Shown: piece by piece, positions 9,526 to 25,156 of the stretch
Numbering within the stretch: position 1 is the first letter of the stretch
Layout of the letters: the number at the start of each line of letters is the position of its first letter
Assembly (NCBI RefSeq): GCF_003003775.1
Contig: NZ_PVWJ01000057.1
Span: 1 to 32,533 of the forward strand
Length of the DNA stretch: 32,533 bases
DNA from: Merismopedia glauca CCAP 1448/3
GTDB taxonomy: Bacteria; Cyanobacteriota; Cyanobacteriia; Cyanobacteriales; CCAP-1448
Direction of reading: 5' to 3'
Translations under genes and position numbers: made by a program
Notes under the pieces: generated by a model
What the model was told of the DNA's origin: nothing
Seen by the model: the letters and a program-made list of their open reading frames with translations, nothing else
Database searches by the model: none

Positions 9526-9546
9526 ACTTATTACTTATTACTTATT
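9526..9546. repeat. Heptanucleotide tandem repeat (ACTTATT)x3
   Basis: Three exact units. The last one overlaps the reversed stop codon of dndD (TAA, 9547-9545). Confidence 0.88.
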
Positions 9547-11551
9547 ACCAAAAATATCCTTCTTGCACCACCGTTTGATGTTGTCCGCCATCATATCTTA
9601 AGAAATACTCGCGGGCGATCGCTTCTTGTTCTCTTAATTGGGCTACTTCTACTTTACCAATCTCGGTATCAGTTGATAATAAAATTACCTGATGACTAGC
9701 TGCGGGAAAATATCTTTCGACTAAGTTATGACGATGAGATGAATCTAGTCTTCCCAATGGTGTATCAATAGCGACGGGTAACTTTCTACCAGATACTCTA
9801 GCTAATCCCCACAAGAAAGCGATCGCTAGTAGTTGTTTTTCCCCTGCTGATAATCGTTTTTTGTTGACTGGTAATCCTTTCAAATCGTATAAAGATATAG
9901 CATAGGTGTTAACATCTATCGACAATCGATGAACTAGATCTGATTTATGCAACAGATATAAAAAACATTCAGTTACAACTGATTCGAGTTGATTGAGTTT
10001 ACGCAATGTCAGTTTTTGTTTAAAAAGTTGGAGTGTTTCTTGTACTTTAGTCGCAGTTTTAATAATGTGTTCGCCATCGCTTTTATCGATAGTTTCTTCA
10101 CTATACTTGGCTAATTCTTTCTTACTTTTTTGGATATTAGTTTCTATTTCGGCTAACTCGCGCTTGCATGAATCGTATGCAGTCTGAATTTTAGATAAAG
10201 CTTTTTGACTTTTCGTAACAGCATCGCTCAAAGTTGCATATAATTCTGGTGCTGCACTTAAAGCTAACTGCCTTTCTGTCGCCTCCATTTTTAATTCTAA
10301 GTCTTTTACTTTAGCGATTTCATTTCGAGTTTGATTCTGAGTTTCTAGCAATTCGTGATTAATTGTCAAATCTAATTGCTTGAAAGTATCTAAATCTAGA
10401 TGTAAATATGGTTCTTGCTGATAGACTGACTGTTGTTTAATTTCCTGATTTTCCCGTTCTAAAAAATCATTAATTAGATTGACTTTATCCGCATCAATTT
10501 GTAAATTAGAGATATATGATAAGAGGCGTTGATTTTGTTTTTGGGTGACTTGAAGAGCGATTTGAGCCTCAGCAGTTTTGATTTCGGTTTCGGCTTGCGA
10601 TCGCGCTTGTTCTAGTAAAGGAGCAATTAATTGCAAAGGTAAAGTATGAGCGGCAAATTCAATCAGGAGAGAACGCGATCGCTCTATTTGTGCTGATAAA
10701 TCTTGTACTTTACTTTCTAATTGACTCTTTTCTGCGGCAATTTTTCCACCTTCTAACAGAAACTTTTCGTTAGCCAAATCTTGTTGTTCGCGAGATTGTT
10801 GTAATTGCGATCGCAGGGTTTTTAATTCTGCTTCTTTTGCTAAATACTTCTGGCGATCGACTTCTAACTTACTTTCAATTTCTTCAATACTTTTTAAAGA
10901 CTTTGCCGAAACCAAAGCTTTTCTTTTACGACTAACTAATATTTCTAAATCTATACTTAATTTCTCAGCTAATTCAAGACCTAAAAGAGATTGAATTGCT
11001 TCTACAACTGCTGCGGGAGGTGCATCTAATTCTGCTAATTCTTTGACTTGTTCCCCATCAAAAAGAAAGAGATTAGAGATTCCTAATGGCAATAGATCTT
11101 CTACTACCTCATCCCAATTTTCGGTATAGTATTGGTCTTTCCAATCATCGACTAAAATACCCAAACTATCTTTTTCATTGCGATCGGACTTGCGCCATTT
11201 CCTGACAATCCGAAACTCAACCGGAACGTTCTCTAAAATGTGTTCAAACAATAATTCAACAATCGTTTCTTCTTCTGCTTTAGCCTGTTTATTAACGGAT
11301 TGATTCAAAAAGTCACTATAACTTAAATTCCCTCTACTAGAACATTGCGCGCGCTGTCCGTATAAAGCCAAGCGAATCGCATCCAGGAAAGTAGTTTTCC
11401 CACCTCCATTCATGCCACCAATTAATATTATTGGGCGAAATTTTCCCTCAGCATCTTGAGATTCCACATAACCGATTTCTGGACGTAAATTAATAATTTG
11501 CCTGCCATAATAACCACCAAAGTTCTGTAAAACTAACTCTAAAAATATCAC
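9545..11551 (-). CDS. dndD: DNA sulfur modification ATPase DndD
   Basis: 668 aa SMC/Rad50-type ATPase of the phosphorothioation machinery, which works with DndC and DndE to replace a backbone oxygen by sulfur. Walker A is GGMNGGGKTT at residues 45-54. A long central coiled coil (about 200-530) follows. The ABC signature LSAGEKQ begins near 567, Walker B LPVAIDTP is near 594-601, and the D-loop is GRLD. The fingerprint IILIGGMNGGGKTTFLDAIR with LFLFDGEQVKELA is typical of DndD. There is no CxxC zinc hook in the coil. The start is GTG at 11551, 47 bases after the dndC stop, so the two form an operon. The stop lies in a heptamer repeat. Confidence 0.9.
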   Translation of the reverse strand: MIFLELVLQNFGGYYGRQIINLRPEIGYVESQDAEGKFRPIILIGGMNGGGKTTFLDAIRLALYGQRAQCSSRGNLSYSDFLNQSVNKQAKAEEETIVELLFEHILENVPVEFRIVRKWRKSDRNEKDSLGILVDDWKDQYYTENWDEVVEDLLPLGISNLFLFDGEQVKELAELDAPPAAVVEAIQSLLGLELAEKLSIDLEILVSRKRKALVSAKSLKSIEEIESKLEVDRQKYLAKEAELKTLRSQLQQSREQQDLANEKFLLEGGKIAAEKSQLESKVQDLSAQIERSRSLLIEFAAHTLPLQLIAPLLEQARSQAETEIKTAEAQIALQVTQKQNQRLLSYISNLQIDADKVNLINDFLERENQEIKQQSVYQQEPYLHLDLDTFKQLDLTINHELLETQNQTRNEIAKVKDLELKMEATERQLALSAAPELYATLSDAVTKSQKALSKIQTAYDSCKRELAEIETNIQKSKKELAKYSEETIDKSDGEHIIKTATKVQETLQLFKQKLTLRKLNQLESVVTECFLYLLHKSDLVHRLSIDVNTYAISLYDLKGLPVNKKRLSAGEKQLLAIAFLWGLARVSGRKLPVAIDTPLGRLDSSHRHNLVERYFPAASHQVILLSTDTEIGKVEVAQLREQEAIAREYFLRYDGGQHQTVVQEGYFW

Positions 11552-11598: not shown

Positions 11599-13197
11599 TT
11601 AATCTTCATCATTACCCAATTCTATCTCGGATTTCCGAAACTTTCTACTCGCCCAACTATTGCCAGAAGCTTGTCCTAGAGTAAGCTGTTTTACTGTATC
11701 AACATCACCCTGACTAGCAGCAGTTTTTAGATTGCGTCTGTAATGAGCATCTGCAATAGCTTTTTCTGGAGATCTAGAACTGGTATCAAAGCATTTTTCT
11801 AAAGCTTCATAGATACCAACTCGACGAGCCATAGTCTTATATTGACGCTCTGTATCTAACAGTTTAGACATCAATTCTAAGTGCATTCCATCATCATCGC
11901 ATATTTCTTCTAACACTGTCCATTCATCAGTACCCAAAAGGCGATTATCTGCACCAGGACGAGGATCTTGAAATTCTTCTCCAGTAACTTCTTTATAAAT
12001 GCGGGGCAAACTATCATCGAATTCGTGTTTTTCTTCTAACCAAATGCGTCTAATTTCACTTAATTCTTCGAGATTAATTAAAGTGATATCTCGCATCTGT
12101 TGGGGACCATTTTGACGAATTCCTGTTTGCGCTGTCAGCACTTTTCTTAGCCAATTTTCCCGCCATATTTTAGTATAAGGTCCAGGAATGGGTACTACTT
12201 CTGTTTCCCCATCTACTTGACGTTCAAAAAGTTGCACGTTACCCCAAATTCGTCGAAAGTCCCGTTTATCATGGTCATCTTGAACATCTAACTCGTTTCT
12301 AATATCTAATAGCGGCTGCATCCACTCTTTTTCTTCATCATTTTGGATCATCGCTTCCATTGACTTGTCTTTACTAACCATCGTACACACCCAGCAGCCG
12401 AAGCGAGAATCGCCACAACTGGGAGTAGATGTATCGACAACGAGGGGACATTCATTATCTGCTGTCGCACCTCTATACATCGTAAATAATTCTTTGTTAC
12501 TTTGTCCCCAAGGGTTTTCCCACTGCATGAGGTAAAGCCAAACTTCATCGTTACGCCAATCTTCTATGGGAGTGTAGATCAGGGAGTTAGGGAGGCTGGC
12601 GTTTGGGCTGAGGTGATCGCGTACCCTGCCTGCTTGGTGTTTTTCCATTGTTGCAGCACGTTTGCTACTTTCCGCTTTACGAGTACCCAAGACTAGAATG
12701 GTTTCGCCACTAGCTCGTACCATTTCTCTAATAAAGTGGTTGGCTGGATTTATTTTTAATCGCGAAGTACACCACCTAAATTGGTTGCGAGGTGCTGGGT
12801 AGCCTTTGCCTATCAAGTTTACCCAAAAGCTGTCTTGAGTTGCGGGTTGGAGTAAATGAGCTTCTATGGGTATGCTCCTATCTTTGGCGACAGTTTTGAG
12901 TTGCTCTAAAGACTGTCTTACCCAAGCAGAAACGATGGGGTTCTCTACCAGAGTATCTGTCGTAATAACGTGGATAGTTTTTTTTCGTTTTTCAGATGGT
13001 AGAGCAGCGATCGCATTCCAAATGAGTTGCAATACTGTACTGGAATCTTTGCCCCAAGAGACACCTATAATCCAGGGAATTCGATCTAGACAATATAATT
13101 CCTGAATTTCCGTAGTTAGCATTTGTATATCTTCTACTAATTCAGCAAGACTACGCTTATTCTGACTTTGTTTACTTGTTTCTTTCGCGATAGTCAT
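11599..13197 (-). CDS. dndC: Phosphorothioation sulfurtransferase DndC
   Basis: 532 aa PP-loop enzyme related to PAPS reductases. In the Dnd pathway it activates DNA with ATP and passes on sulfur through an iron-sulfur cluster. The PP-loop SWGKDS is at residues 47-52, and the PAPS-reductase-like motif RWCTSRLK is at 141-148. Four cysteines at 250, 261, 268 and 271 (ECPLV, SCGDSRFGCWVC) are placed as expected for the DndC 4Fe-4S cluster. Length matches known DndC proteins. ATG at 13197 opens the operon with dndD downstream. A 144-base divergent spacer separates it from the GIY-YIG/DGQHR operon. No cysteine desulfurase (DndA) is encoded nearby, so sulfur is probably supplied by a chromosomal IscS-type enzyme. 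Confidence 0.93.
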   Translation of the reverse strand: MTIAKETSKQSQNKRSLAELVEDIQMLTTEIQELYCLDRIPWIIGVSWGKDSSTVLQLIWNAIAALPSEKRKKTIHVITTDTLVENPIVSAWVRQSLEQLKTVAKDRSIPIEAHLLQPATQDSFWVNLIGKGYPAPRNQFRWCTSRLKINPANHFIREMVRASGETILVLGTRKAESSKRAATMEKHQAGRVRDHLSPNASLPNSLIYTPIEDWRNDEVWLYLMQWENPWGQSNKELFTMYRGATADNECPLVVDTSTPSCGDSRFGCWVCTMVSKDKSMEAMIQNDEEKEWMQPLLDIRNELDVQDDHDKRDFRRIWGNVQLFERQVDGETEVVPIPGPYTKIWRENWLRKVLTAQTGIRQNGPQQMRDITLINLEELSEIRRIWLEEKHEFDDSLPRIYKEVTGEEFQDPRPGADNRLLGTDEWTVLEEICDDDGMHLELMSKLLDTERQYKTMARRVGIYEALEKCFDTSSRSPEKAIADAHYRRNLKTAASQGDVDTVKQLTLGQASGNSWASRKFRKSEIELGNDED

Positions 13198-13341
13198 TTT
13201 TCCTCTAACTTCTCAAATACGAAGGCTTTCGGCTTCAACTGTTACTTTATGAGATTTTTACGACTTTATTGATGTCTTTTTGCTTATGATAGGGAATGTT
13301 CAATTGTACTTCTTTGTTAAGCTACTTAGGAAATCTATATT
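13198..13341. promoter_or_regulatory. Divergent promoter region of the Dnd island
   Basis: The 144-base spacer separates dndC (minus) from the GIY-YIG/DGQHR operon (plus) and must hold both promoters. It is AT-rich. TATGAT at 13285-13290 is a possible plus-strand -10, but no convincing -35 partner is visible. Two TACG half-sites occur (13218, 13259) without a CGTA partner at spacing 10. Confidence 0.45.
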
Positions 13342-14013
13342 GTGACATGGCTACAGGCCAATAATGCTGTAGAACAGCTAAGCCAAAATGTTATTTTGTA
13401 CGACTTGGGGCAAATGCGCGATAATAGTAGCGTTTTAAAGCGTATACCTCATAATGTTAGCGGTATTTATGCTTGGTATCGTGGCTTTCACCTCGATCCT
13501 GCAACTAGAGACAACCCCGAAGTATTCGTTAACTTTTTACTTAGCGAGCTTTCTAAAGCTCACTCTGTTGCCAGGGAAACAAAACTTCCGCCAGCACATA
13601 AAATATTACTCCAACCAGAAACTTCTTTCCATAAAGAAATCCTCCTTAGACAGTTGGCGAAAGAGCCATCTTTTCGCCAATTACTCTTTACGCTACTGAA
13701 TAATTCTCTAATTTTTCAGCAGCCTTTGTATATAGGAAAAGCTATAAATATTTACTTCAGAATTCGTACTCATCTTGCTGAAGGGAGCATTTTGAGAGAG
13801 AGACTGAGCCACGCTGGGCATAATATTAATAAATGTCGTCTTTTGCTTATTTTCACCCCAAACAACTTGCCAAACTCTACTATTAGTTATGAACAGGAAG
13901 AGCAAGAAGATGATGTTACAGAAGAGAGTGAAATTTCTCAATTAGAATCCGAAGTATTAGTTGAAGATATTCTGTCTAGGCTATTTCTACCATCATTTAC
14001 ACTTAGATACGGT
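13342..14013 (+). CDS. GIY-YIG-like nuclease of the Dnd island
   Basis: 224 aa from GTG 13342, with AGGA ten bases upstream; the nearby ATG at 13347 is out of frame and stops at once. SGIYAWYRG (GIY at 41-43) and PLYIGKAINIYFRIRTHL (YIG at 130-132, arginines at 140 and 142) match the two halves of a GIY-YIG nuclease core. They are separated by an insert of about 85 residues instead of the usual ten or so. The C-terminal LESEVLVEDILSRLFLPSFT resembles the family's catalytic glutamate helix and the P-F-N element, with T for N. The stop (14014-14016) is six bases from the next ATG, so the two are one operon. A DNA nuclease is inferred; substrate and activity are unknown. Confidence 0.62.
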
Positions 14014-14022
14014 TGATCGAAA

Positions 14023-16008
14023 ATGATTATATTTCCCAATGATGAGCGGAGATCGAGATATAATAAACCACTTTATGGATTGACAGGTATTTATACTTTA
14101 TCCGAAGGAATAGCTATTCCTTACTTTCTTTCATTAGTTGAAATTAATCGCGCTATTGATGAGCTTAAAATCGCAGAACAAGTTCCCGCTTCATTAGACA
14201 CACAATGGTCCTTGAAAGAGCTTTTTCAACGAGAAATTGATGAAAAAAGAGTGGAAGACGATATCGTTAAAGGCTATCTTTTAGATCCTAAAAAATTAAA
14301 GTTTTTCAATGCTATTACTATTGTATTAATGCCAAGATCGGGGAATGACAAGATCCAAAATACTTTTGAACATGATACTAGTACCGATTCTCCACCAATC
14401 CCTTGGGATGGAACAGATACAGAGGATTCTCAATGGAATCATCCAAAAGCTAAGGTAGCAAATTTCGGCGGAGTTCAATTCATTTCTATTGGCTCACAGG
14501 CTAGATTGCGTTGGGATGAAGATAAAGTTTTGGCAGTAGCTGTTGATGGGCAACATCGTTTATGGGCACTTCGTACTTTCAGGGAAGATCAAAAGTTTCG
14601 AGGCGGCACTCTTCGTACTATTGAGTCACAAACAAAAATTCCAATTATGTTTGTTTTACTTCATCCCAGTGCAGGATTTGAAAATAAACAAAGTGAAGCT
14701 GACTATTCTATTAGAGGAATTGCACGTGAATTATTTACTGATTTAAATAAAAATGCTAAAACAGTAGATAAAGCTAGAGAATTAATACTTGATGATAAAA
14801 ATATTAACGCTCAATGCGTCAGAACCTTAGTAACAGAAAAAACTGGAGAGGATTCTGACAATAGAATTCCCCTTTCTCTTGTAAGATGGCAAGACGACTC
14901 GAATAGATTTGATAGTTCGTATTATCTCAATTCTCTAGTACATTTAGATTTACTGATCTCAGCAATATTGGATCTTAAACCACCACGAGATCCGATGGAT
15001 AAAAAGCAAGTCGAGCAGTTTATTAAAAGTATTGACTCTGCACTTGGTATAAACGGAAGTGAAGTAGAGTATGAAGGACGCTCTCTTTCTAGATATTATC
15101 AAGAAGATTACTGTGATGAAGATGGAGAACCCGATACACCGTTTGCACGTTTACCAGAGAATTATTTAGACTCAGCAATAAAAGGCTTTAAAGCCAATTT
15201 CCGTCATTGGCTACTCCAATTATTATTGGAATTCAACCCTTACCACAATTTATTAAAATATGCTCGCGAACATAATTTAATAGAGGGAAAATTTGGTAAG
15301 TTTCAAGCACAAACTAGCAAACACAAAGGAATTATTAAAGAACAAGAAATTGCCAGAGATAGCGATTGGCATAACCGAGAAGTATTAACCCACCAAACGG
15401 CGATCGCGGCAATGAAAGAAAATCAATGGGCATTCAAAGCAATCTTTCAGAAAGCGATGGTTCGGCTAGCCAGGATGGTAGAGTTTGAATATAAAGGTAA
15501 AGATCCAAATTTAGGTAATGTAAGTGATGTTTTGAAATTTTTAGATCGCCTCTACGATAAAAGTGTTCTGAAAGTAGATACGAACTTACCTAATTACCCA
15601 TTCAAGTTATGGACATTTATATCTATTAATCCAGGAAATGACAAAATTAAAGTCGCTAAAACTATAGAAGATAGAATATTTTGTCTGTTATGCTTGTGGT
15701 ACTTTGGTTCGCGCAAAGTAGAAATAGATATGAAGAAAGGTGACAAGATTTTATCACCACGCAAGTTGTTAAACTTTTTCGCTGCTGATACTAATAAAGC
15801 TTATTGGGCTGACTGTAGTCAGGCATATCAAACAGTATACAAAGGGTTTGACACGAATGCCTTTTATGGAAAAGAGCATGACAAAATTCAGAAGGATAAA
15901 AAAGATGATATGGTGCGCGATAGGTTTTCTGCTGTGCTTGTGATGGGTTTACCCGAATCATATAACCCACATCCCGAAAAACAGCAATCTGTGGAAGAAG
16001 AAATATAA
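14023..16008 (+). CDS. Long DndB-type DGQHR-domain protein
   Basis: 661 aa with the DGQHR motif at residues 175-179 (AVAVDGQHRLWALR). The downstream helix ELFTDLNKNAKTVDKARELIL is typical of the DGQHR family that includes DndB, the regulator of dnd operons. It is nearly twice the usual DndB length of about 360 aa. The C-terminal half (about 330-661), rich in charged helices, shows no motif I recognise. ATG at 14023 follows the GIY-YIG stop by six bases. The gene is markedly AT-rich and has few HIP1 sites (one near 15402), which hints at horizontal origin. Regulator, PT-site sensor and restriction partner are all possible roles. I call it DndB-type rather than dndB because of its length. Confidence 0.75.
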   Translation: MIIFPNDERRSRYNKPLYGLTGIYTLSEGIAIPYFLSLVEINRAIDELKIAEQVPASLDTQWSLKELFQREIDEKRVEDDIVKGYLLDPKKLKFFNAITIVLMPRSGNDKIQNTFEHDTSTDSPPIPWDGTDTEDSQWNHPKAKVANFGGVQFISIGSQARLRWDEDKVLAVAVDGQHRLWALRTFREDQKFRGGTLRTIESQTKIPIMFVLLHPSAGFENKQSEADYSIRGIARELFTDLNKNAKTVDKARELILDDKNINAQCVRTLVTEKTGEDSDNRIPLSLVRWQDDSNRFDSSYYLNSLVHLDLLISAILDLKPPRDPMDKKQVEQFIKSIDSALGINGSEVEYEGRSLSRYYQEDYCDEDGEPDTPFARLPENYLDSAIKGFKANFRHWLLQLLLEFNPYHNLLKYAREHNLIEGKFGKFQAQTSKHKGIIKEQEIARDSDWHNREVLTHQTAIAAMKENQWAFKAIFQKAMVRLARMVEFEYKGKDPNLGNVSDVLKFLDRLYDKSVLKVDTNLPNYPFKLWTFISINPGNDKIKVAKTIEDRIFCLLCLWYFGSRKVEIDMKKGDKILSPRKLLNFFAADTNKAYWADCSQAYQTVYKGFDTNAFYGKEHDKIQKDKKDDMVRDRFSAVLVMGLPESYNPHPEKQQSVEEEI

Positions 16009-16033: not shown

Positions 16034-16498
16034 TTAAGTGAGAAACTTGCTTAAGTCAAATTCCTCTCTATTTTGATTTTGCTTAAATCTATCAATACTA
16101 ATAATTAATAGTATTCGTTCTAAGTAATCGACTGCTCCGCGTAATTCATGTTCGAGGATTTCTAAACCACCATTAGCATATTCCTCGAATATTTTAGTGC
16201 GTTGATTATCAGCTTGTTCATCATCTGCTAAAATATTTTGATCTTTAATATCACAGATGCTTAATAAATTAACTAGTAACCTGCATTTATGGCTATCAAA
16301 ATATTCGCGACGAATAGGATCTATAGTTTTTGAAACTTCTTCAAATGGAACTCTTTTGTGCCTTTTTACTCCCAAGGCAGCAGCAAATACTAAAACATCT
16401 ACATAGGTAGGAAAAACTCCAGTTATGTTATCAGATGCAGCCAAAGCTTTAAGTAAATCTGTTTTATCTCTAGCTACCTTGATTCTACTTTCAGCCAC
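16034..16498 (-). CDS. DNA phosphorothioation-associated protein 4-like
   Basis: 154 aa from GTG 16498. The N-terminal half (VARDKTDLLKAL, TGVFPTYVDVLVFAAALG, KRVPFEEVSKTIDPIRREYF) resembles the small protein named DNA phosphorothioation-associated protein 4, found beside dnd genes in cyanobacteria and other bacteria. Its biochemical role is unknown. The C-terminus is predicted helical and charged. It is the last gene of a minus-strand operon (57-aa protein, SMC-like ATPase, 77-aa protein, this one), 45 bases after the previous stop, and it converges on the DGQHR gene with a 25-base gap. The name is from memory of the family pattern, not from a search. Confidence 0.68.
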   Translation of the reverse strand: MAESRIKVARDKTDLLKALAASDNITGVFPTYVDVLVFAAALGVKRHKRVPFEEVSKTIDPIRREYFDSHKCRLLVNLLSICDIKDQNILADDEQADNQRTKIFEEYANGGLEILEHELRGAVDYLERILLIISIDRFKQNQNREEFDLSKFLT

Positions 16499-16543: not shown

Positions 16544-16777
16544 CTAATCTCCCACCTTTAACCATCCAAATATCTCATTTGCTATCAGAGTTAAAGGTAT
16601 TTCTTCTAACATGAATAAAGCATCTTTCCCTTGTAACAATTGAGGCTGTTTATCCGATTGAAAGATCAAAACACTTCTATCTTCATAAACTGGTAGGGGC
16701 GGGTTTAGCAAATAAATTAATCCGAAGTTATCAATATCAAACAAAACCCGCCCTCTTAAAATTAATCCTATCATCAT
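16544..16777 (-). CDS. 77-aa orphan protein in the Dnd island
   Basis: Starts ATGATG at 16777, with the purine-rich AGAAGGA just ahead, 11 bases after the stop of the SMC-like gene. The close spacing and good ribosome-binding site support a real gene. The protein is a small soluble alternation of beta-like hydrophobic runs (IGLILRGRVLF, FGLIYLLNPPLPVY, RSVLIF) and a C-terminal helix (TLIANEIFGWLKV). I recognise no family. Because it sits between an SMC-like ATPase and a phosphorothioation-associated protein, a structural or accessory role in that complex is a guess. Confidence 0.6.
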   Translation of the reverse strand: MMIGLILRGRVLFDIDNFGLIYLLNPPLPVYEDRSVLIFQSDKQPQLLQGKDALFMLEEIPLTLIANEIFGWLKVGD

Positions 16778-16788
16778 CTTTCCTTCTT

Positions 16789-18849
16789 CTAGTCTACTTC
16801 TAAAATCTCTGTATATTCAAAGTCATTTGGACTTTGTTTTACTAAGGGATAATCAATCCCGTCTAACTCAATACTATCAGCTTCGCAATCGGGTTTAGGA
16901 GAGTAGTAAACTAAGACATATTGCTTCCCAGTTTTGTGAGATATTTCTGCTTGAACTTCTCCGCGCCATTGAGTTTTACTGACTAAAACTACTAATTGAT
17001 TGGCTAATCTAGGGACGATCTTTGCTACTTGTCGGCGATAGATTTCATCTAAGCTACCAAAGGGTGAATCCATGACAATTGGAAAAGTGCTACTATCAGG
17101 CATCATTAAGGTTTTACTTTCACTCCATTCCCGAACTTTGTCGATGATGCTACTAATAAATGATAAACTCAAAATTTGGTTTTCACCAGTAGAAGCGGCG
17201 ACGATTGATTCTACTCCTGAAGTGTTTTCAACTAAGATTAATTCGTATTTTTCTGTGATTTTGGGTATGTAGGGAGTAAAGGAAATTTGAGCAAAAATTT
17301 CTTGAACTCGACTTTCTAATTGAAGACGGAAATTTTGTTCTTGGCGGTGTTTAACTTCGGTTAATCTTTCAATAGCGTCTTGAGTAGCGATGATTCGGCG
17401 CTGTGCTAGTTTTTGTTTGGTTTCATTCAGTTCTTGTCTAGCAATTTGTTTGATTAAATTGGCTAATTCGGTATTAGTATCTGCTATCTTCTGTTGATTT
17501 GCACCTTGTTCTAAGGTTAAATCTTTGATTTTTAATTCTATATCATCTAATCGCTTTTGCAAATTCCGAATTTCTTCACTGGGATCTTTCCGCAACTTTT
17601 CATGAATCAGATCTAGCTGGTTTTCAATGTCGCTAATAACTTGTCTGAGTTGACTAATATTTGCTTGTTCTCGATCTGCTTCTTCCCAAAAACTAATAGC
17701 TTGTTTATCAATTTCATCTACTTGAGATAGCATCCGAATCGCAGTTTCTTCAACACCCGCAATTCCAGCCTTATCTATCCATGCTTCTACTTGTTGATAA
17801 GTATAACTCCCTGGTTCTAATTCCGTACCACAAAAACACCTTTGCCGTTCCAATATTTCTTTGACAAATTCTTGAGAAATACCAGCTTTGAGTTCTCCTT
17901 TTTGACGCAAATCGGCAATTAAGTTTCTAAAACTGCTAGTAATTTCTGGGAGTAATACTGTATAAGCTTTACTAGAGATTAATCTTTTTAAAGCCTGTTG
18001 ACTCTTTTTCAGTTGTTCCAAGTTTAGCGCTTTTTGTGACTCTAATTGCTCTCTTCTATTTTGAATTTCTTGAGCCGCACTTAAATCTAATAAGGTTTTA
18101 CTAACTTCATGCTTGATAAGCTGTTGATGTTCGATCTCTTGGATAATTTCTTGTTGACGAGTTTGTTTTTTATCTAATTCTATCTGGCTTTGGTTTTGCG
18201 ATCGCATCAATCCTTTAATCTGGGAATCCCCAATCTGTTTCAACTCTAAATCTAAACTTTTCTTGGCTTCTCCTAAATGCCTAATTGAGCGATTTAAGAT
18301 CTCAATTCCTAATAACATTTTCATCGCTTCGGCAATTTCGGCCTTTTTATCAGAACGAACTATTTGTTCGATCCTTTCTCCATCAAAAAAGAAGTATTGA
18401 TGCAAACTATTAGGTAAAATCTCTCCAATAATTTCATCTTGATGTTTATCGGTAATAATCCATTTTCCGTCATCTGCGGCGAAGTAGAGACTCAATTGTG
18501 TCTTTCCGACTTCATAGTCAGTTTCGGTTTTATACGCGCGACAAAATCGTCTGGCTAAATACCGTTTATTGTCGTGTTCCCAAGTAACTTCTACCCAACA
18601 TTCTATACTAGAATTAAGATTTGCTTCGGCGATCGCTCTTTTATTTACTAGTTGCTCTACTGAAGCAAAAGCGGCGGTAAACTTCTCGTATAATACCCAG
18701 GTAAATGCATTTAATAAACTAGTTTTTCCAGATCCATTGTTACCATGAATTACCGTAATGTTACGCTCTATATCGCCAGCTATTTTTATTTCTGGAGTTG
18801 CACCGTAAAACTGACGAAAGTTACATAGCCTAATTCCTATTAGTTTCAT
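16789..18849 (-). CDS. Rad50/SMC-like ATPase of the Dnd island
   Basis: 686 aa. Walker A GNNGSGKTS at residues 36-44, then YFFFDGERIEQIV near 152-164. A long coiled coil (about 190-520) is interrupted by CFCG (C338, C340), a minimal zinc-hook-like turn. An ABC-type signature STGENQILSLSF, Walker B FPIVMDSP and D-loop GSLDE lie near the C-terminus. The same layout occurs in DndD but the sequence is different, so it is a second, distinct SMC-type ATPase in the island. Its ATG overlaps the stop of the upstream 57-aa gene (ATGA), indicating translational coupling. It could be the motor of a restriction or repair complex that reads phosphorothioate DNA. ATPase identity is firm; the role is inference. 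Confidence 0.82.
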   Translation of the reverse strand: MKLIGIRLCNFRQFYGATPEIKIAGDIERNITVIHGNNGSGKTSLLNAFTWVLYEKFTAAFASVEQLVNKRAIAEANLNSSIECWVEVTWEHDNKRYLARRFCRAYKTETDYEVGKTQLSLYFAADDGKWIITDKHQDEIIGEILPNSLHQYFFFDGERIEQIVRSDKKAEIAEAMKMLLGIEILNRSIRHLGEAKKSLDLELKQIGDSQIKGLMRSQNQSQIELDKKQTRQQEIIQEIEHQQLIKHEVSKTLLDLSAAQEIQNRREQLESQKALNLEQLKKSQQALKRLISSKAYTVLLPEITSSFRNLIADLRQKGELKAGISQEFVKEILERQRCFCGTELEPGSYTYQQVEAWIDKAGIAGVEETAIRMLSQVDEIDKQAISFWEEADREQANISQLRQVISDIENQLDLIHEKLRKDPSEEIRNLQKRLDDIELKIKDLTLEQGANQQKIADTNTELANLIKQIARQELNETKQKLAQRRIIATQDAIERLTEVKHRQEQNFRLQLESRVQEIFAQISFTPYIPKITEKYELILVENTSGVESIVAASTGENQILSLSFISSIIDKVREWSESKTLMMPDSSTFPIVMDSPFGSLDEIYRRQVAKIVPRLANQLVVLVSKTQWRGEVQAEISHKTGKQYVLVYYSPKPDCEADSIELDGIDYPLVKQSPNDFEYTEILEVD

Positions 18850-24148: not shown

Positions 24149-25156
24149 ATGGAGTTTCACTATTTAAAATATTGTCAATATCTCCTAAGTAGTCAAACCA
24201 ACTATACTTTGACTAACTTAGCTAACCATCTTCAAGAGTTTAGTCACGATACTATCAATCGTTACTTAAGTAAGTCGAAGTTAACCCCAAGATTGCTTTG
24301 GGAAAATGTGCAATCTTCAATTGAAGTTCATGAGGGAGCGAGCTTGGTTTTTGACGACACAGTTAGTGACAAGAGATTTTCCTCAAAAATTGAGATTGTT
24401 CGTCGTCAATATAGTGGTAATGAACATCGAGTGATTCGAGGAATCGGGTTAGTCAGTTGTGTTTATGTTAATCCAGAAACCGGAAAGTTTTGGGTAATTG
24501 ATTATCGAATTTACGCTCCAGATGAAGATGGCAAAACTAAGCTAGACCATGTAGCAGATATGCTGAAAAATGTCGTCTATCAAAAACAACTACCTTTTGT
24601 TCAAGTCTTAATGGATAGCTGGTATGCAGCCCAAAAGCTGATAATGTTGATTGACCAACTGGGAAAAATTTATTATTGTCCTCTCAAGAAGAATCGGTTA
24701 GTTGATGATAGCGGAGGCGTGGAAAAATATAAGTCAATTGAGCAGTTGAATTGGAGTGCGGTGGAGGAAAAGCAAGGGAAAATTCTCAAGCTCAAGAAGT
24801 TTCCCCAAGATAAAAAGGTGAAACTATTCCGGGTGATTATCTCTACCGATAGAACGGAATATGTCGCGACTAACGACTTAACTCAATCGAGAATTGAAGA
24901 GGTGAAGAATGAGTGTCACCTTCGCTGGAAGATTGAGGAATTTCACCGAGAAGTTAAGCAACTAACGGGGATTGAATCTTGTCAATGTCGGCAAGCTCGA
25001 ATTCAAAGAAATCATATTGCTTGTGCCATTCTGGTTTGGAATCATCTCAAGAATTTAGCTTATTTCAGTTGCCAAAGTGTCTACAAACTGAAACACGACT
25101 TGTTATCAGAGTACCTGATTAGCGAACTTAAACATCCTTCAATTAAGATGAGCTAG
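24149..25156 (+). CDS. DDE transposase of the insertion sequence
   Basis: 335 aa. RNase-H-fold transposase with likely catalytic aspartates in FDDTVSDK (near residue 69) and VLMDSWYAAQ (near 156). The glutamate is in the C-terminal RWKIEEFHREVKQ (near 258-270), which resembles the YREK signature of IS4-type enzymes. An N-terminal helical region (1-60) probably binds the ends. The frame is intact from ATG 24149 to the stop, 13 bases before the right inverted repeat. It catalyses movement of the element that carries it. Confidence 0.9.
   Translation: MEFHYLKYCQYLLSSQTNYTLTNLANHLQEFSHDTINRYLSKSKLTPRLLWENVQSSIEVHEGASLVFDDTVSDKRFSSKIEIVRRQYSGNEHRVIRGIGLVSCVYVNPETGKFWVIDYRIYAPDEDGKTKLDHVADMLKNVVYQKQLPFVQVLMDSWYAAQKLIMLIDQLGKIYYCPLKKNRLVDDSGGVEKYKSIEQLNWSAVEEKQGKILKLKKFPQDKKVKLFRVIISTDRTEYVATNDLTQSRIEEVKNECHLRWKIEEFHREVKQLTGIESCQCRQARIQRNHIACAILVWNHLKNLAYFSCQSVYKLKHDLLSEYLISELKHPSIKMS

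Follow-up and report, generated by a model that had tools for sequence, protein, structure and literature searches.

A small protein with the modelled fold of a GIY-YIG nuclease and a larger protein of the DGQHR family are encoded side by side as a conserved module, which comes in three classes and occurs in both dnd and ssp loci, among genes of DNA phosphorothioate (PT) modification. By analogy with SspE and DndI, the pair may be a two-gene, PT-linked restriction effector resembling a split version of those proteins, a proposal that we regard as evenly balanced. The window, meaning the whole stretch of 32,533 nucleotides that was analysed, is a cyanobacterial contig (C57 of genome G000, Merismopedia glauca CCAP 1448/3), and the close relatives found are all cyanobacterial. 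Along it, genes for DndD and DndC on the reverse strand are followed by the 224- and 661-codon open reading frames on the forward strand and then, again on the reverse strand, by genes for PbeD, a 77-aa ORF and PbeC (Table 1). An earlier note, written from this DNA alone, had described the small ORF with its GIY and YIG motifs and C-terminal helix, the large ORF six bases behind it and the divergence of both from dndC and dndD, all of which is borne out here, although the genes it called fused by operon are adjacent and not fused. The two pbe genes next door are absent from that note.

Table 1. Features of the two-gene module and its neighbours, in positions of the window
Feature	Position	Strand	Basis
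DndD	9545..11551	-	TIGR03185, 627 bits
DndC	11599..13197	-	TIGR03183, 728 bits
Intergenic region separating dndC from the divergent pair	13198..13341	.	ORF map
GIY-YIG-type nuclease (predicted), class A, 224 aa, GTG start	13342..14016	+	ORF; model alignment; active-site residues
Tyr43 codon (GIY motif)	13468..13470	+	Invariant residue
Y130-I131-G132 codons (YIG motif)	13729..13737	+	Invariant
Arg140 to His144 codons (R-x3-H)	13759..13773	+	R140 and H144 invariant
Glu208 codon, metal-site Glu by alignment	13963..13965	+	Invariant
DGQHR (ParB-superfamily-like) partner, 661 aa	14023..16008	+	TIGR03187 and Pfam DndB, just under cut-offs
D175-G-Q-H-R179 motif codons	14545..14559	+	Invariant in 29/29 pairs
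DNA phosphorothioation-associated protein 4, taken as PbeD (DndE-like)	16034..16498	-	TIGR04062, 176 bits
77-aa ORF in the place of PbeB; candidate PbeB by position only	16544..16777	-	ORF
PbeC (CxC-type ABC ATPase)	16789..18849	-	PADLOC PDLC02753, 1072 bits

The TIGR04062 protein is taken as PbeD from its size and its position beside PbeC, as these are given in two papers (PMC6459918, PMC10853773). In a PADLOC scan of ten ORFs around the pair it had no match, and the 77-aa ORF likewise had none in family-model searches that included PADLOC. Other genes of the same genome lie apart, with DndE on contig C164 and a pbeA-type gene (TIGR04095) on contig C83, the L044 counterpart of which is PbeA according to PADLOC. 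At the window locus, promoter-like matches in the intergenic region showed no excess over shuffled sequence, Rfam gave no matches, and PHROGs gave none for the six proteins searched.

The two genes are found together far beyond the window. When a nuclease profile covering all classes was scanned over 388 genomes of the order, with the best seven or fewer candidates per genome scored, the family appeared in 29 genomes, 27 of them with an adjacent DGQHR gene and two with decayed copies (G196, where both genes lie in pieces within a dnd-pbe locus, and G339, with a truncated nuclease only); as the members that went into the profile were paired ones, it may overlook solo relatives at greater distance. 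The 27 pair genomes divide into class A, that of the window (10 genomes), class B (10 genomes; proteins of 184 and about 540 aa) and class C (7 genomes; 221-227 and 751-789 aa). The two reading frames, 6 nt apart in the window, are separated by -32 to +9 nt in all 30 pairs measured. A wider scan of genome contigs, made for class A only with two short peptide patterns, returned 12 loci, all cyanobacterial; seven of these join the ten genomes of the order to give 17 class A loci. As that scan was confined to class A, classes B and C are known outside the order only from plasmid records. Class A was found in no viral contigs, and neither class A nor class B nucleases were found in plasmids. Counts below over 29 intact pairs omit two loci in which the contig ends inside the DGQHR gene (L049, L101), three whose nuclease is split or contains a stop (L051, L099, L104), three whose DGQHR gene is truncated or contains a stop (L058, L065, L073), one lacking the nuclease (L052), two decayed loci (L108, L109) and five (L063, L068, L071, L072, L074) taken as repeats of G228, G343, G380, G026 and G258; L107 is a repeat of G082/L055.

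Assignment of the small protein to the GIY-YIG fold draws on several comparisons. The Pfam GIY-YIG model (PF01541) matches the window protein weakly (E=0.025; 15.3 bits, below the 22.6 cut-off), and a class B relative in locus L057 reaches 28.4 bits. Searched against the PDB, a profile of 16 relatives found the nuclease domain of UvrC (E=3.3e-4). The AlphaFold model (pLDDT 71) was aligned by VIA-align with GIY-YIG domains of UvrC at Z 9.7-10.5, with 2lwf, which we take to be a plant Grx domain with a GIY-YIG fold, at 7.8 and with R.Eco29kI at 6.2-6.7; the ten top rows are all GIY-YIG structures, and the next row drops to Z 3.0. Foldseek with the same model against the PDB gave nothing at E<=0.001, with UvrC ranked second at E=0.71. 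By its modelled fold the small protein is a GIY-YIG nuclease, as the earlier note had expected a structure model to reveal.

The catalytic set of GIY-YIG enzymes consists of two tyrosines, an arginine, a histidine and a glutamate. The corresponding residues Y43 (of the GIY at 41-43), Y130 (of the YIG at 130-132), R140, H144 and E208, the last within the modelled helix 202-215, do not vary in any of the 29 intact pairs aligned over classes A, B and C, despite only 18-23% identity between the window nuclease and those of the other classes. Conservation of the whole set across such distances is more than chance. At the place of the usual terminal Asn, class A has Thr220 and class B an Asn; class C has neither. 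From the start of GIY to the start of YIG there are 87-111 residues in every class (29 intact pairs), so that the long insert between the two motifs, which the earlier note suggested could serve recognition, is a trait of the family; R.Eco29kI, a restriction nuclease with the same fold, is a Type II enzyme not known to carry the long insert. The class C nuclease carries the NCBI name 'hypothetical protein'.

The 661-aa partner falls just short of the cut-offs of two family models. It scores 39.8 bits against TIGR03187 (cut-off 58.85), with the DGQHR motif at D175-R179 present and invariant, and 28.9 bits against Pfam DndB (cut-off 29.1) over residues 65-272, and it has no match to the DndB equivalog TIGR03233 (cut-off 328 bits). 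True DndB proteins of 350-354 aa adjoin the pair in two other genomes (L046, L047), and the one in L046 scores 465.5 bits to TIGR03233. The possibility that the 661-aa protein is DndB itself is ruled out by the absent TIGR03233 match together with the true DndB beside the pair elsewhere. The 'DndB-type' label of the earlier note needs correcting to this extent: judged by its family matches, which lie below cut-off, the protein is a DGQHR-family paralogue and not DndB proper. It shares the motif and the Pfam DndB match with DndB and other DGQHR proteins, but differs from DndB in length and in profile. In profile comparison, class A DGQHR proteins reach 42% probability with DndB and 24% with the 535-aa DGQHR protein of the same loci, against 97.5-98.9% with the other nuclease-linked DGQHRs. 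Class C DGQHRs also resemble the nuclease-free 535-aa DGQHR (85-90%), and the class profiles found no match to cyanobacterial SspE. NCBI names the class C proteins 'DNA sulfur modification protein DndB'. An AlphaFold model from 10 sequences reached only pLDDT 41, for which reason a ParB-type fold of the 661-aa protein would rest on family knowledge, namely that DndB and DUF262 are described as ParB-like (PMC11662687, PMC10853773). Its profile had no hits among PDB sequences.

Close relatives of the 661-aa protein (E<1e-260) are found in 11 of the 388 genomes. More widely, 39 genomes contain a relative, adjoined by the nuclease in 27 and by none in 12, so that DGQHR must have another role as well.

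Where the pairs lie depends on their class. In class A, dndC is at most 2.4 kb away in 17 of 17 loci, which gives the linkage with dnd genes that the earlier note predicted for other genomes, and the DGQHR gene directly follows the nuclease in all 17 (two broken). A pbeD gene stands about 2 kb off in 11 of these loci and 5.3 kb off in one, and 14 of the 17 encode an additional DGQHR protein of 526-543 aa. Class B pairs lie in a dnd locus in G044 and G377, as does the decayed copy of G196; around 8 of the 10 pairs no dnd or ssp gene was found within the 9.6-20 kb examined, and the neighbours sampled are housekeeping genes, such as those for GMP synthase and arginase. In class C, sspC and sspD share the stretch in all 7 genomes of the order scan, and SspB was confirmed in L056 and L094. 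The class C arrangement is also present on three plasmids. One of them, from Trichormus variabilis ATCC 29413, has a nuclease interrupted by a single stop; plasmids of two Asticcacaulis strains (Alphaproteobacteria) carry the arrangement with a nuclease 44-45% and a DGQHR protein 50% identical to those of cyanobacterial class C2. Over the order, dndC is found in 27 of 27 pair genomes against 313 of 388 above cut-off (hypergeometric p=0.0024, and p=0.021 for classes B and C alone, both ignoring phylogeny).

The ssp loci provide a further comparison. In G078 and G171, SspE (PADLOC 1082 and 1061 bits) stands between sspD and the DGQHR gene, in the slot that the nuclease takes elsewhere; in G013 and G116 this slot holds MNT with HepT and an MNT-type gene, respectively. 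The DGQHR protein of the SspE-bearing locus G078 is sister to the nuclease-bearing one of G299 (support 100/99).

PbeABCD, described as a CxC-ATPase system (PMC10853773), resembles the pair's surroundings in that pbeC and pbeD flank the pair and a pbeA-type gene is in the genome. The pair nevertheless stands outside the four pbe genes, and TIGR04062 is present in 331 of 388 genomes against 10 for class A. A role as replacement for PbeA was considered because no pbeA lies in the window locus, and was rejected, since all 11 genomes searched, among them G000, have TIGR04095 over cut-off. With pbeA elsewhere in the genome, the pair adds to Pbe and does not replace it, nor is it the sole restriction arm.

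These distributions also bear on whether the pair serves modification itself, with the nuclease nicking DNA to help sulfur insertion and the DndB-like DGQHR protein limiting PT. Its position next to dndC or sspD would suit such an accessory, as would reports that DndB regulates PT and that ParB-like proteins can show nuclease activity (PMC10853773). Class A, however, is in 10 of 388 genomes and dndC in 327, so modification does not need the pair; moreover, the unlinked class B pairs and the presence of DndB proper beside the pair in two loci speak against this role, which we consider improbable.

The two genes have also diversified in step. Over 12 of 13 class A pairs (L069, which lacks a whole dndD, was left out), the distances among nucleases follow those among DGQHR proteins with r=0.957, a value to be set beside 0.80-0.85 for either protein with dndC or dndD and 0.94 for dndC with dndD. 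The partial correlation of nuclease and DGQHR is 0.88 given dndC and 0.85 given dndD, against 0.11 for nuclease and dndC given DGQHR; as the distances are not independent, these coefficients are a description and not a test. They nonetheless count, like the recurrence of the pairing in the two other classes, at other genomic sites and in Alphaproteobacteria, against regarding the large protein as a DndB-type regulator and the nuclease as a passing neighbour whose linkage reflects the shared ancestry of one locus. Such a reading could appeal to the class A loci, which are largely syntenic and so do not make 17 independent cases, but it is already disfavoured and scarcely credible. For the DGQHR proteins, a single clade of all nuclease-type members is neither supported nor rejected by the tree (AU p=0.203), and for class A such a clade is favoured by profile comparison. 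A clade restricted to loci that have the nuclease is rejected (p about 2e-141) because nuclease-free DGQHRs sit among those loci, and on the tree the partner state switches at least six times.

Broken copies offer some insight into how the partners might depend on each other. An intact nuclease gene sits beside an interrupted or truncated DGQHR gene in L058, L065 and L073, where two of the breaks are single stops that might be sequencing errors; conversely, an intact DGQHR gene has a broken or missing nuclease in L051, L052, L099 and L104. As each gene persists intact beside a broken partner in some loci, neither is evidently lethal by itself, and a nuclease active without restraint is unlikely. 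A unit of toxin-antitoxin type, in which the DGQHR protein does nothing except restrain a constitutively active nuclease, would fit two adjoining genes at translational-coupling distance, but the three loci with a damaged DGQHR gene make it very improbable. Given that intact nuclease genes survive next to damaged DGQHR genes, the nuclease probably stays silent until activated by its partner, in the manner of SspE, and not merely restrained by it. Activation that depends on both PT and the partner is the simplest reading of this pattern.

Such control has precedents. SspE and DndI are described as single chains in which a PT-sensing ParB-like NTPase is coupled to an HNH nickase (PMC11662687, PMC13251355), and a DndB-like protein is described as binding ATP and GTP (PMC12704722). 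Like the pair, SspE (of SspABCD-SspE) and DndI (of IscS-DndBCDE-DndI) are PT-linked and combine a ParB-superfamily part with a nuclease; their DGQQR motif shares DGQ-R with DGQHR, and in two ssp loci SspE occupies the nuclease's place in the operon. They differ as single chains of DUF262 and HNH (DUF1524), whereas the pair is two proteins with a nuclease of GIY-YIG type, and models of DUF262 and DUF1524 had no match among the window proteins. The type IV systems GmrSD and BrxU similarly join a ParB-like NTPase to a nuclease, and GmrSD can be two proteins (PMC10952713), but there the nuclease is HNH and the target modified cytosine; a sub-threshold GmrSD_N match was seen in one class C relative only (E=0.021).

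In the restriction effector proposed here, the two jobs of SspE and DndI, PT sensor and nuclease, would be split over two proteins. The GIY-YIG protein would be a DNA endonuclease or nickase. The DGQHR protein, always at its side, would have a ParB fold, bind nucleotides and sense DNA that carries PT. By coupling PT sensing to control of the nuclease, the DGQHR protein would let unmarked incoming DNA be nicked and host DNA be spared. The use of NTP, the sensing of PT, the DNA target and the anti-phage role are what we infer from these likenesses. The sensor-and-nuclease idea of the earlier note, as a matter of predicted functions, fits the pairing; its observations stand, and its interpretation is partly supported.

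That GIY-YIG (URI) genes lie near dnd clusters is already in print. Rakesh, Aravind and Krishnan (2024) reported such nucleases from Dnd cluster edges, in some cases encoded on the opposite strand, and proposed them as suicide effectors (PMC10853773). They belong to the same nuclease superfamily and occupy the same kind of place as the nuclease here but are described as stand-alone, and the consulted parts of that paper mention no DGQHR partner, no classes and no ssp versions. The remark of the earlier note that no established module employs this pair accordingly holds for the DGQHR pairing, as far as those parts go, and not for the nuclease at the cluster edge. Following the same authors, the pair could be a back-up suicide effector, its nuclease cutting the cell's DNA indiscriminately once a phage disables the main PT system and the DGQHR protein acting as trigger or guard. 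The opposite-strand edge position agrees with their description, and the MNT-type genes in the ssp slot of two genomes, one with HepT beside it, point the same way. A suicide role nonetheless seems unlikely to us, as the nuclease is not stand-alone (in 27 of 29 genomes a DGQHR gene adjoins it, and the other two copies are decayed) and as class C and the class B pair of G044 continue the row of PT genes without a change of strand. Sequence alone would not separate restriction from suicide.

In the text of the open-access papers searched, no account was found of the GIY-YIG-DGQHR pairing or of its sharing between Dnd and Ssp; within what could be searched, a nuclease-partner module common to the two has gone unremarked. 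Its interest lies partly in a gap noted by others. Of 2,678 sspBCD clusters, 2,211 have neither sspE nor sspFGH, and the authors ask whether further partners exist (PMC8092258); cyanobacterial dnd clusters have been described as being without a restriction part (PMC8569181). Occurring in dnd as well as ssp loci, and at the position of SspE, the two-gene unit offers that question a short and testable candidate. URI genes near dnd clusters may likewise be reread: the nuclease family studied here has a DGQHR partner, and experiments should address the two proteins together instead of treating the nuclease as a suicide enzyme acting by itself. More tentatively, and with rather less confidence than for the effector itself, the pair could be a mobile, PT-reading module that plugs into both Dnd and Ssp, swaps with SspE and has crossed phyla. 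If so, it would be one of the restriction partners missing from the numerous ssp and dnd clusters currently counted as orphans.

In ssp loci, toxin-antitoxin genes accumulate (L085, L089 and L107) in the slot that separates sspD from the DGQHR gene, the place of the nuclease in class C loci. Class C loci, in which the nuclease-DGQHR pair lies within an ssp locus, carry further genes encoding a helicase, a HATPase and a phospholipase-D-family protein, possibly constituting an additional effector set. The PLSDB gene table holds no entry for the open nuclease gene of pASTEX02. In three dnd loci (L087, L088 and L093), no nuclease was found alongside a large DGQHR gene; the C-terminal part of its product weakly matches DUF7939. 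In the window itself, a 335-aa ORF was judged by eye to be a putative DDE transposase.

Features of the window and of individual loci compared with its nuclease-DGQHR pair (L numbers; coordinates within each locus)
Feature	Coordinates	Remark
MNT-HepT	L085:7764-8451	sspD-DGQHR slot
MNT	L089:10354-10695	sspD-DGQHR slot
Phd/YoeB	L107:7343-7862	insertion ahead of nuclease, sspD-DGQHR slot
RadD/PbeA-like SF2 helicase, MzaB-like HATPase, phospholipase-D-family gene	L056:3986-7485; L104:11050-15607	after DGQHR gene, class C ssp loci
Nuclease gene, Asticcacaulis excentricus plasmid pASTEX02	L106:7118-7777	reading frame open
DGQHR gene (756-786 aa), dnd loci	L087:8776-11046; L088:7952-10222; L093:7476-9836	immediately follows pbeD
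PbeA (493 aa), cyanobacterial	L044:15042-16523	
Putative DDE transposase	window 24149-25156	

The cyanobacterial PbeA of L044 has TIGR04095 counterparts in other genomes. Because it aligns to the PADLOC PbeA models only over their last two thirds, from about position 240 on, the N-terminal third would be either absent or encoded by a separate gene. Among the 388 genomes of the window's order, TIGR04062, taken as pbeD, was found in 331 and dndC in 327, making Pbe-type genes near-universal in this order. This spread contrasts with an earlier account which describes cyanobacterial dnd as being without a restriction part (PMC8569181).
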